A stretch of DNA of 45,731 nt from Elusimicrobiota bacterium (lineage in GTDB: Bacteria > Elusimicrobiota > Elusimicrobia > Elusimicrobiales > UBA9959). The stretch spans positions 1 to 45,731 of the forward strand of contig JACRER010000099.1 of assembly GCA_016234365.1 (NCBI GenBank). Direction: 5' to 3'. This document shows positions 18,956 to 32,106 of this stretch, one piece after another. The notes under the pieces are model-generated. The model saw only the letters and a program-made list of their open reading frames with translations. It made no database searches and was not told where the DNA came from. How positions within the stretch are numbered: position 1 is the stretch's first letter; each line of letters begins with the position of its first letter. Position numbers and translations under genes: made by a program.

Positions 18956-19279
18956 ATGGACGGCAAACACCTGGCCAGGCCCGATGACGTTGTGGAGCCG
19001 GAACTTCTGGGCACCGCCGGCTCCCGGCCGCGCGCGGACGACGCTTTTTACCAGCCTCCGCAACGGCCAGGCCTGCTGGCGCGGCTTAAATTCTTCGCCG
19101 CCGCCGCCCTGGGCCTGTTGGCCGCGGTACTCTTCTTCTGCGGCGCCCTGCTCACCTCTACGGTGATCGGGGCCATCATAGGCATCCCGCTCATGCTCGC
19201 CGGCGCGGTCGTCTTCTTCCTGCTCTTCAAACTCCTCACGCTCGGCTCAAAAAACTCCTTCATCATCCGCCGCTTCTAA
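18956..19279 (+). CDS. Small two-helix membrane protein, unknown function
   Basis: 107 residues. A polar N-terminal 40 residues, rich in charged residues and Pro, is followed by two hydrophobic helices (about 44-67 and 70-94) and a short basic tail (FIIRRF). I recognise no family. The gene is divergent from the fibronectin-like protein gene, separated by 41 bases that must hold both starts. The plus-strand start fits the leaderless pattern. Codon use, with many GC-ending third positions, matches the neighbours, so I take it as real. Downstream lies the structured intergenic region. Confidence 0.65.
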   Translation: MDGKHLARPDDVVEPELLGTAGSRPRADDAFYQPPQRPGLLARLKFFAAAALGLLAAVLFFCGALLTSTVIGAIIGIPLMLAGAVVFFLLFKLLTLGSKNSFIIRRF

Positions 19280-19283
19280 GGAA

Positions 19284-19481
19284 GGCAGGCCTGCAAGTGC
19301 GCAGGTCCTGTCGAGGGCTTACCTCGTCACCCGCTCCCATTAGTCAGCCTGCCGCGGAGGCCGGGCGGGGTGTTCCTCCGCGAACCCATTGCGGAGGGGA
19401 GGCTCCAAAGCCGCAGGCTTTGGAGGGGAACCACGCAAGGGTTCCCTGCAGTCAGGGTGAGAGGAGGAATGCCCCGCCCGG
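19284..19481 (+). other. Candidate structured RNA, two multi-branched domains
   Basis: Between two convergent genes. Domain 1: GGCAGGC (19284-19290) pairs with GCCTGCC (19347-19353) and encloses CTGC/GCAG (19291-19304) and CGAGG/CCTCG (19312-19326), a three-way junction. Domain 2: the arms at 19361-19379 and 19463-19481 form a 19-bp helix with two wobble pairs. It encloses two perfect hairpins: CTCCAAAGCC/GGCTTTGGAG (19403-19425) and GGGAACC/GGTTCCC (19426-19446). The wobbles are G-U only if the plus strand is the RNA; on the minus strand they would be A-C mismatches. CCTCC near 19375 can alternatively pair with GGAGG at 19393. I recognise no known RNA family. It could also be a palindromic mobile repeat. 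Confidence 0.45.
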
Positions 19482-19489
19482 CTCCCCCC

Positions 19490-22400
19490 TTACCTGACGT
19501 TAATGAGCATCCCGGCCGAGTGGGCGGCGAACTCGGGCGCGTACATGGACTGCATCACCGCCGAACCCAGCCGGAACTTGCCCGCCGTCGTGGGGCGCAG
19601 CCGGTACTTCAGCACGTACTCGCCGTGCGGCAGCCACTCCACGAAGAAGTTGGTCAGCGAATCGCGCGGCTCCTCGTAACGGCCCAGCCCGTCCCAGCGC
19701 CAGCCGCTGTTAAGGGCCTCCGCCTCAAAACCGGCGGCCTTCGGGTCCTTGATGTGCACATATTCGAACTGGCTGCGCGTCGTCACGGTCAGCTGCACTT
19801 CCAACTGGTCGCCTACGGCCACGGTGTCGCCGGAAGCCAGCGGCTTCAGCACGTAATTGGCGCCCTCTTTCTCGCGCAGGAAATACTTGCGCGAGACGTT
19901 CATCATCCCGGCCGGGGATTCCTCGGCGGGTTTGTCGGTGGTGTAGACCCCGGTGAAAGAGGCGAAGGCCAGCCCCGGCCCGCGCTTGTGTATCTCAGGC
20001 GCCAGGTGCCTGGGCGTTATCTCCGCGCCATACTTGGACCAGCGCAGGGGTTTGGCCACCCAGTCGAACGGCTTCAGGTCCAGTTTCTCCTGGGCCCCGG
20101 CCCATTTCACGGCATAAGAATCGCCCTTGTCCAGCGCCCCCTTCGTCTTCATAACGTCGAGCAGGGAGTAAATGGCCGCGGCTGAGGCCTTGGTGGACTT
20201 CCACTCGTTGGCTTTGCGGTTGAACAGCAGCCAGCGCGCCAGCCCGGCTATCTTCGGGTCCCTGGGGCGCACGGCCAGCAGCGTGCGCAGCATGAACGCG
20301 TGCTTCTCGACGGTATCGTTGTACCAGCGCCAGGAGATCTTCTCCGGAGTCCAGTAGACGCCGGCTATCTCGTCGGAGCGGGCGCCGTCCATGGCGCGGT
20401 CCAGGTAGCTCTCCGCCTTCTGCTTCTCCCCCAGCCGCAGGTAGACGTAGGCCGCGTAGGCTTTGCCGAACGCGGTCATGGCGTTGGAGTTGCGGTCCGC
20501 GTAGTCCACCCAGGCCTTGGCAAAAGTGCGCGCGGTCGCGCTCTCCGCCCAGGTTTCCGGGAATGAGGTAACCACGTAAGCCGCGTAAAGCACCAGGGAG
20601 GTTTCCTCATCCTCCGCCTTCAGGTGGGCCGGGATCTCGGACAGCACGTAAGTCAGGGCCTTGCGCGCCATATCCTCGGGGATGTCCACGCCGTAGCGGG
20701 AGGCCTCCGCCAGGCCTTCCAGCACGTAAAGCGTCATGTACACGTTGGCTTGCCCGCCGGGGAACCAGGGGAAGGCGCCGTTGGGCATCTGGTAGGTCTT
20801 CAGTTTGCCCAGCGAGTCCTCCTTTTCGGCCGCCACCGTGGCCGGGTCCAGCATGTCCGTCACCGGCCAGTAGGACTGGCGGCCGCGGGACTCACGCTCC
20901 CACGGCGTTTCCATCAGGGTCATCAGCCGCACCGGGTTGTCGCGTTCCCATTCCGGGGTTACCGTCGACCGCTTCGGGACCTTCGCGGCGGCATCGGCCA
21001 GCTGCGGGTACTTCCGGTAGAAACTGTTGGTGATAGCCAGCGGCACGTAGCGGTTAAGCAGCTGCTCCGTGCACTCGTACGGGTAGGTCACCAGGAAGGG
21101 CAGGCTGTTGAGCACCGTAAGGATGAGCTGCGGCTGCACCTCCAGGTGCAGCGCCTCCATCCGGCGCGTCGGGTCGGCGGCGGCCAGTTCGGCCAGCGAG
21201 AACTTTTTGGAAGCGTCGCCGTCCAGCGCCGCCACGGAGGAAGCTATCAGGCGCTCGCGGCTGGGCAGCACCGGCAGGTCGTTCTCCTGCGCGTCGGCCA
21301 GGCGCCCGGCGCGCGCCACCGCGCGCACCTTGTAGAGGCCCGTGCCTGGCGGCACCGCTATGTCCCAGTAAAGCGCCGTAGTCCCCCCGGCTTTTACGGT
21401 AAAGGGCCGCACGGGCGCGGTTATGCCCAGCGAAGCTATGGCGTCGCCGCCGTCGCGCACGGCGGACAGCGTCACCTCGCCTGAGAGTTCGCCGACCGTA
21501 TCGTTGGTAACCACCGCGGTAAGGCGGGAAGCGTCGCCCTCGCGGAAGAACCGCGGGATATCCAGGCGCACCATCAGGTCCTTCTTGGTTACCGTCTCGG
21601 CAGCCGCGGAGCCGCGCTTAGCATCCTTGGTAAGCAGGTAGGACGTGATCTTCCAGGAAGTGAGCCTCTCCGGGATCCGGAAGGTGAACTTTGCGTTACC
21701 GTCGAGCACTTTCAACTGCGGGTTATAGTAGGCGGTTTCGGAGAAGTCGGTCCTAACTTTGGGCGCCGGCTCCTGGGCGGCTTTGGCCTGGCCCGGGGCG
21801 GCTTTCTCTTTGAGGGTGCTGTCGGCTTTGGCCCCGGCCAGTTGCGGTGCCGCAGCAGGGGAAGCTAACCTGGCGGTGTTGCCGCCCTGGGACAGGTCCA
21901 TGGCAAGCGACTCCTCGGATTCCGAGAAACCGCCCATGGCCTTGGCCGCATACATCAACCCGCCCCTGGAAGCGCGCATCATGGCAGAGGCTATGCGCAA
22001 CGAGGCCAGGCGCTCTTCTTTCACGCCGCTCCGGAAAGCTTCCAGCATGCGCTGTATAAGACCGGTCCTAACCGGCAGCGAAACCGCGTAAGGCGCGAAC
22101 AGGGAACCGTAGCCCTCCCCGCCGGTCGGACGCCGCGGGTAAAGCGCAGCGCCCCAGAACCCTTCGTCGGCGCCGTAATATTCCAGCGAACGGTCGAAGA
22201 TCTTTACCAGGGCCTCGCCTGAGACGGGGCGCCCTGCGGCGTCCCTGGCCTTCAGTGCCCAGGCGACTTTCTGCCCTGGCGCCAGCGCGCGGGCATAGTC
22301 CAGCGTCAGGGAAACGTCCTTGTCCGTGCGCGGCACGTCGGCCTCCGCCACCGCGGAATACACGTTGAACCCGCCGGCACCCAGCCAGCGTACGCCAAAG

Positions 22401-27291: not shown

Positions 27292-27316
27292 CTGGTTCGC
27301 GATTCCCGGATTCAAA

Positions 27317-27446
27317 GGGGCGACAAGGGTATGGGTTCGGCGGGTGCTCGCGCAGGGCGAGGCTTACGTAAGCGCCGAGCCCGAGCGGCAGCGCGGCCAC
27401 GGTGTGGCCGACAGCGTGCCCGACGGGCCCATACCCCTGCCGCCCC
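27317..27446 (-). other. Candidate structured RNA or palindromic element between rocD and the permease
   Basis: On the minus strand the arms 27446-27428 and 27335-27317 form a 19-bp helix (GGGGCGGCAGGGGTATGGG with CCCATACCCTTGTCGCCCC) with two G-U wobbles. On the plus strand those two positions would be A-C mismatches, so the minus strand is the likely RNA. Inside lie a hairpin CGGCCAC/GTGGCCG and an arm closed by GCTCG/CGAGC containing the 12-base palindrome GCTTACGTAAGC. It begins 4 bases past the ornithine aminotransferase stop and ends about 25 bases before the permease start. It could be an attenuator or riboswitch-like leader of the permease/murB transcript, or a mobile repeat. No U run is visible, so it is not a standard terminator. 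Confidence 0.45.
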
Positions 27447-27450
27447 GACA

Positions 27451-31317: not shown

Positions 31318-31339
31318 AATAGGGACAGCGCCCTATTTT
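31316..31339. repeat. REP palindrome, copy 1 (left flank of RAYT gene)
   Basis: AAAATAGGG, 6-base loop (ACAGCG), CCCTATTTT: 9-bp arms. It fills the whole gap between two convergent stop codons, the TAA of the radical SAM gene (31315-31317) and the TGA of the transposase gene (31339-31341). Its 20-base core AATAGGGACAGCGCCCTATT is identical to three other copies in the window. Confidence 0.88.
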
Positions 31340-32037
31340 CACAAAAAACAATCATTTCCAGTCCTACCTCCCTCCGGCCGGCCCACAGCTAATGGATGAA
31401 GGCGGCGGCCCAGACGCCTTTCCATCATCCGCACGAACGCCTCATCACCGACCGGACGGCCGGTGCGTGTGTTTTTCCGGAGGCATCCGCTCTCTTCAAA
31501 ATCGTCTTCTTTAGAAAGCCATGTTCCCCAATCCCGTTTCAGATCCGGAAGCAACGACCATAATGCGTCAAGGTCAAACCTAAACCTGTCGCCGGCATGG
31601 CCCAGATGCATGGCTGCGCTTGACCATCCCCAGCTACCCGCCGCGGCGACCATCCCCGCCCTTACGGGATTTCTCTCTACATACCTCGCAGCAGCCACCA
31701 AATGTCTACCGTCGAGGGGACAGGAGTAAAACCGCCCTTGCCACAAATGCCCCCTCAATCCGCGCCTCCAGTTAATGTATTGCGCATATCTCATATGGGC
31801 GGTATTAAAAACGCGCGCCAAAGAATACTCACTGCCAGGGATGGCGACAAAGTGCACGTGATTCGGCATAAGGCAATACGCCAGAATCGAGAGAGCATTT
31901 TGCAAGGCGTATTCCGAAATCAGGCTCAAGTATCTTTCCCGGTCAGAATCGCTTTCGAACACCATTCCGCCATAGTTCCCTCTCTGCGTAATGTGGTGAG
32001 GCAAACCGACACCAACCGCTCTGGATATTCTTGGCAT
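31339..32037 (-). CDS. REP-associated tyrosine transposase (RAYT), Y1 family
   Basis: 232 residues. The HUH motif HVH (residues 60-62, in LMPNHVHFVAIP) and catalytic Tyr119 in AARYVERNPVRAGM are in the order and spacing of Y1 transposases. The HLWQGRFYSCPLD segment is also typical of the RAYT branch, which cuts and joins single-stranded DNA at REP hairpins. I start at MPRISR, which follows GGGGGTGG and matches the usual N-terminus (MPRI.RAV..G.PHHITQRG); the extra 15 residues of the longer frame have no such features. C-terminal about 50 residues are extra to the core fold and charged. The stop overlaps the left REP by one base. Confidence 0.9.
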   Translation of the reverse strand: MPRISRAVGVGLPHHITQRGNYGGMVFESDSDRERYLSLISEYALQNALSILAYCLMPNHVHFVAIPGSEYSLARVFNTAHMRYAQYINWRRGLRGHLWQGRFYSCPLDGRHLVAAARYVERNPVRAGMVAAAGSWGWSSAAMHLGHAGDRFRFDLDALWSLLPDLKRDWGTWLSKEDDFEESGCLRKNTRTGRPVGDEAFVRMMERRLGRRLHPLAVGRPEGGRTGNDCFL

Positions 32038-32106
32038 ACTCCACCCCCTGCCTGCACATAGCATAGCAGAGCAACCCGACAACGTAGTGTCGGGTTCCGG
32101 GCACGG

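Follow-up and report, generated by a model that had tools for sequence, protein, structure and literature searches.

The window, that is, the whole stretch of 45,731 nt analysed here, contains two genes that converge on one gap, a 107-aa ORF with its stop codon at 19279 and a bacterial alpha-2-macroglobulin gene with its stop codon at 19490, in agreement with the convergent setting given in an earlier note on this DNA. The gap is occupied at 19284-19489 by members of two dispersed repeat families placed side by side, part A at 19284-19353 and part B at 19359-19489. A search of the same genome returned 20 further partial matches in two sets, one matching the first part only and the other the second part only, and copies of A and of B were each found without the other. 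Judged from the sequence, the B copy is intact and adjoins a deletion derivative of A, both being inserted between the convergent genes. The single RNA with two domains that had been proposed is thus replaced by separate, abutting repeats, the G.T-tolerant strands of which are opposite. An end module, CCGACTNNGCATCTCGCGG, is common to some copies of A and some copies of B, so the two resemble sister elements that differ in their cores.

The copy of A at 19284-19353 is a short form lying on the minus strand, taken as the G.T-tolerant strand of full-length A, and is matched by copies in its own genome over 41-51 nt at 92-95% identity. It retains the outer arms GGCAGGC/GCCTGCC, with about 110 nt of the interior deleted, while full-length A has about 190 nt, as in L011:307-493. 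Family A, read in its own orientation, shows 36 G.T against 6 A.C pairs, and this orientation corresponds in 19284-19353 to the minus strand, opposite to B. Another A-type repeat, almost complete in length, lies at 27316-27449 on the minus strand, with a CACGGTGTGG hairpin and an outer stem of GACAAGGGTATGGG/CCCATACCCCTGCC.

The B copy at 19359-19489 is an intact, plus-strand member of a family of about 130 nt and scores 113 bits with covariance model R1. The long helix enclosing two hairpins is present as had been described, though with a length of 20 bp rather than 19 bp. This outer stem, P1, pairs 19360-19379 with 19463-19482 at a probability of about 1; its sequence is variable in the family while the pairing is kept, and its two imperfect pairs, T19371.G19471 and G19372.T19470, are indeed both G-U on the plus strand. 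Inside it, the inner helix P2 pairs 19384-19387 with 19455-19458, and its family pairs covary (A-G/C-T, A-T/A-T, C-G/C-G, C-T/A-G). A purine-rich core strand, TTG[GC]GGARGGGRGG (19389-19402), consists of near-invariant alignment columns and is followed by the 10-bp hairpin P3 at 19403-19425 (19403-19412/19416-19425), the stem sequence of which is exchanged between copies, and by the hairpin P4 at 19426-19446 (stem 19426-19432/19440-19446), which has a conserved loop, RCGNRAS, with GCAA at 19435-19438. The P4 loop keeps the GNRA form throughout, being GCAA and rarely GTAA in the genus and GGGA or GAGA elsewhere. The TGCAGTC on the 3′ side of P4 (19447-19453) is invariant within the genus.

The plus strand reaches a folding energy of -128 kcal/mol, whereas its shuffles average -103 (z -4.7) and none of 200 came as low. 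The fold of the minus strand is almost as stable (z -4.45), as a palindrome would lead one to expect, so that energy and z alone do not tell the strand. The CCTCC at 19375-19379 does have both of the GGAGG partners previously pointed out, at 19393 and 19463, plus a third at 19356-19360, which lies inside an 8-bp match. The conformational switch suggested from them was rejected, since the alternative pairs have an ensemble probability of about 0 against about 1 for the long helix, and any 5-bp alternative is kept in only 25 of 90 copies. A pseudoknot between CAA of the P4 loop and TTG, suggested by eye in the genus, is not retained in the other families and was dropped. In four copies of B (L074, L089, L093 and L099), an additional hairpin and then [CT]GCAGTGCC stand on the 5′ side of P3, as if a module of hairpin plus TGCAGT had been duplicated. 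Apparently orthologous copies in two species (L088 against L135/L009) share flanks and outer stem while their P3 sequences are unrelated, which suggests that P3 may be replaced by conversion or template switching.

Covariation was evaluated on 84 distinct copies of B and 33 pairs. The pair cells were standard-paired in 97.6% of cases, and double changes occurred in 22 of the 33 pairs. A total of 412 doubly changed cells were counted against 99 in shuffles, with 0 of 500 shuffles reaching this value, and the signal was gone when the partner was shifted by one column. The covariation of the outer stem is very strong. An earlier refuter of the RNA reading, a mobile repeat lacking covariation, applies in its first half, B being a mobile repeat, but not in its second.

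In addition, the strand bias that had been argued from two pairs extends to the whole family, as the outer stems of B carry, on the plus strand, 96 G.T against 16 A.C (p=4e-15; 49 copies against 8). This count is separate from the covariation test, the stems having been aligned under equal scores for G.T and A.C; most of the copies entering it were picked by the exact core motif and not by their stems, while A3 was fitted to the model. The G.T:A.C ratio is 23:2 for copies sense to both neighbours (++), 19:3 for copies antisense to both (--) and 14:1 for copies between convergent genes, and the integrity of the fold is equal in sense and antisense tandem sites. The excess of G.T whatever the direction of the neighbours implies that the fold of one strand is selected, and not by way of transcription of the neighbouring genes. 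The conserved property of B is therefore the shape of one strand and not its letters, the arms having almost no fixed sequence. Covariation beyond shuffles and a wobble bias on one strand, by which a structured RNA is recognised, are both found in B and fit RNA and ssDNA alike; the frequency of wobbles and the GNRA loop somewhat favour RNA, with ssDNA being compatible.

Elusimicrobiota are known mostly from metagenomes, and the genomes compared here are MAGs. The covariance model of B gave matches in 31 of the 32 genomes of the genus, ranging from 1 to at least 80 in each and numbering at least 12 in the genome studied, with all per-genome counts being lower bounds, as no more than 107 or 150 candidates were scored in each genome. 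A 28-base core motif returned 65 matching stretches in a public genome collection, of which the named records are Elusimicrobia/Elusimicrobiales MAGs, such as GWA2_62_23, GWC2_64_44 and GWB2_63_22, and the others bacterial MAGs; no exact match to it occurred in viral contigs. Elsewhere in the class, further genera and families contain weaker and more divergent matches, which are also multicopy, and outside the genus the architecture is unchanged while the stem sequences are unrelated and some are very A+T-rich. One B-like copy from a distant genus (G237; L188 1500-1622) lies about 700 nt upstream of a 16S rRNA gene. The element had been called unassigned, and a search of Rfam (4227 families) agrees, giving no match at the gathering threshold and only chance-level matches at a relaxed threshold; literature searches brought up no paper on such an element in Elusimicrobia.

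An RNA of a single locus, as had been envisaged, does not fit these results, since B is multicopy and interspersed and is gained, lost and inverted at the same sites. In the gap that follows the alpha-2-macroglobulin gene, B runs opposite to the gene in 19359-19489 and in L111 (G014) and codirectional with it in L104 (G003), L113 (G023) and L121 (G025), while L105 and L106 have no B and L103 has, in place of B, an unrelated palindromic element. The L104 copy itself (~2680-2730) bears a palindromic insert of about 45 nt, GGGCTATGCCC...GAGCTATGCTC, nested in its P4 loop, and a related sequence is also present in L120; this insert is possibly a third small repeat family. The nifS-nifU gap of two species has B in opposite orientations between orthologous genes (L048 against L068). 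The gap between purM and purN contains a sense B in five species, remnants in two, A-type elements in several and nothing in several. Among 46 copies with clear neighbours, called from simple ORFs, 16 are sense and 16 antisense in tandem gaps, 13 are convergent and one is divergent, and a further 14 cases lying in genes are probably due to over-called ORFs. Together, these gains, losses, inversions and orientation counts indicate an inserted element that is tolerated where the link between a gene and its promoter stays intact. No target-site duplication was clear by eye at copies of B, and no partner IS sharing terminal inverted repeats with A or B was found.

The five purM-purN copies share position and flanks, and their stems differ by matched changes, as in GGGG-G-ATTACCCCCG / TAAT-C-CCCC of G013 against GGGG-C-ATTACCCCCG / TAAT-G-CCCC of G023. 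Such changes may reflect either selection in place or refreshment by conversion, and copies kept vertically in this way could point to a host function at some sites.

We consider it probable that B is a non-autonomous, interspersed, mobile element kept or propagated through one folded strand, either RNA or ssDNA. Such an element would spread through intergenic spaces and later be lost again, with its fold maintained as a long stem of free sequence leading to a junction, where a conserved purine-rich strand is joined by two hairpins, one exchangeable and the other capped by a GNRA-type loop. The plus strand would be recognised, as folded RNA or ssDNA, by a trans-acting factor during propagation, and effects on neighbouring mRNAs would be a by-product. 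A more far-reaching version, which we put forward tentatively and regard as rather doubtful, would make B a mobile family of the whole Elusimicrobiota, its folded RNA or single strand being recognised by shape (a GNRA-capped junction within a free stem) and moved by an enzyme that is neither Y1/RAYT nor reverse transcriptase, through a mechanism so far undescribed.

A host-functional cis RNA of old dispersal, acting in the processing, attenuation or stability of mRNA, is unlikely, even if the '++' copies often begin 7-20 nt past a stop codon and end 14-50 nt ahead of the next start and the sense copies between purM and purN were kept in five species with matched changes, because tandem copies are evenly sense and antisense with folds of equal integrity, both orientations occur in the one alpha-2-macroglobulin gap, and the same gaps of many relatives have no B. 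The strong hairpin between convergent stops, together with the stop codons that precede many copies, might alternatively recall a transcription terminator working in both directions; this is very improbable, as the stem is not followed by a T-run, many copies lie between codirectional genes just 14-50 nt apart, and termination needs neither a conserved core nor a GNRA loop. A strand-specific fold independent of the neighbours and a GNRA-type loop would also suit a non-coding RNA that acts in trans and is encoded by many dispersed gene copies, each having its own promoter, but B often fills the entire gap with 6-30 nt left, giving no room for a promoter, and the copy number varies from 0 to at least 80 among close relatives, so that this is the least credible of the explanations considered.

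An element of the REP/REPIN type, mobilised by a Y1 (RAYT, TnpA-REP) transposase that acts on its single-stranded hairpin, would agree with selection for the fold of one strand, as expected for ssDNA recognition, and with the avoidance of divergent gaps. The genome contains four Y1_Tnp genes, one of them in the window, a REP-associated-type transposase gene (PF01797) at 31339-32082 on the minus strand, which is single and has no A or B repeats flanking it. Nevertheless, such mobilisation is quite improbable: no B lies near the Y1 genes of this genome, the counts of Y1 genes and of B are uncorrelated over the 32 genomes (Spearman rho 0.01, with B counts as minimum values), and five genomes free of Y1 hold from at least 9 to at least 31 matches to B, while others with Y1 hold 0-3 among the matches listed. 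Moreover, B is 130 nt long and its arms vary while its core is conserved, the reverse of a REPIN. Mobilisation by a reverse transcriptase, with B as a derivative of a group II intron or retroelement, is likewise unsupported, as RVT_1 is missing from 24 of the 32 genomes, including several of the richest in B (G006, G022, G013, G023, G025, G029 and G031). No recurrent protein gene was found beside B, the repeated neighbours being confined to common paralogous families and to orthologous sites.

B is a family new to Rfam. Its outer stem varies freely in sequence, and what is conserved, over dozens of copies and across families of the phylum, is the shape of one strand. As a natural experiment it is unusually clean for asking whether selection on the fold of such a repeat acts through RNA, ssDNA or host function. 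As the carriers, copy numbers, filled and empty orthologous sites and enzymes to exclude are now listed, the question is testable.

Interspersed repeats of the ERIC and BOX type are usually defined by conserved sequence. B is ERIC-like in size, intergenic placement and palindromic design, ERIC being an imperfect palindrome of about 127 bp that is intergenic and non-autonomous, forms a long stem-loop RNA and bears short inverted repeats at its ends and duplicated target sites (PMC2229807); unlike ERIC, B has no definable ends of this kind, combines variable arms with a conserved internal core and belongs to a different phylum. The BOX elements of streptococci are interspersed repeats built of modules, extensively structured as RNA and acting in cis if co-transcribed (PMC3049150). 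Their modules are conserved in sequence, with the number of tandem boxB units varying, whereas B varies by compensated changes in its arms, and no sequence relation between B and BOX was found. REPs have 20-50 nt and follow a conserved tetranucleotide, which is GTAG in most cases (PMC8266576). No GTAG occurred at the base of the stem in a 60-copy alignment of B, and GGAG precedes some copies only. B shares with REP, BIME and REPIN the extragenic palindrome, the avoidance of divergent gaps and probably recognition as a single strand, but is longer than REP, lacks a tetranucleotide of the GTAG type and is independent of the Y1 gene count. Like MITEs of the ERIC, Correia and RUP type, B is non-coding, multicopy, mostly intergenic and highly base-paired and falls within their size range of about 100-200 bp, and the mosaic that it forms with A resembles the organisation of BOX and BIME.
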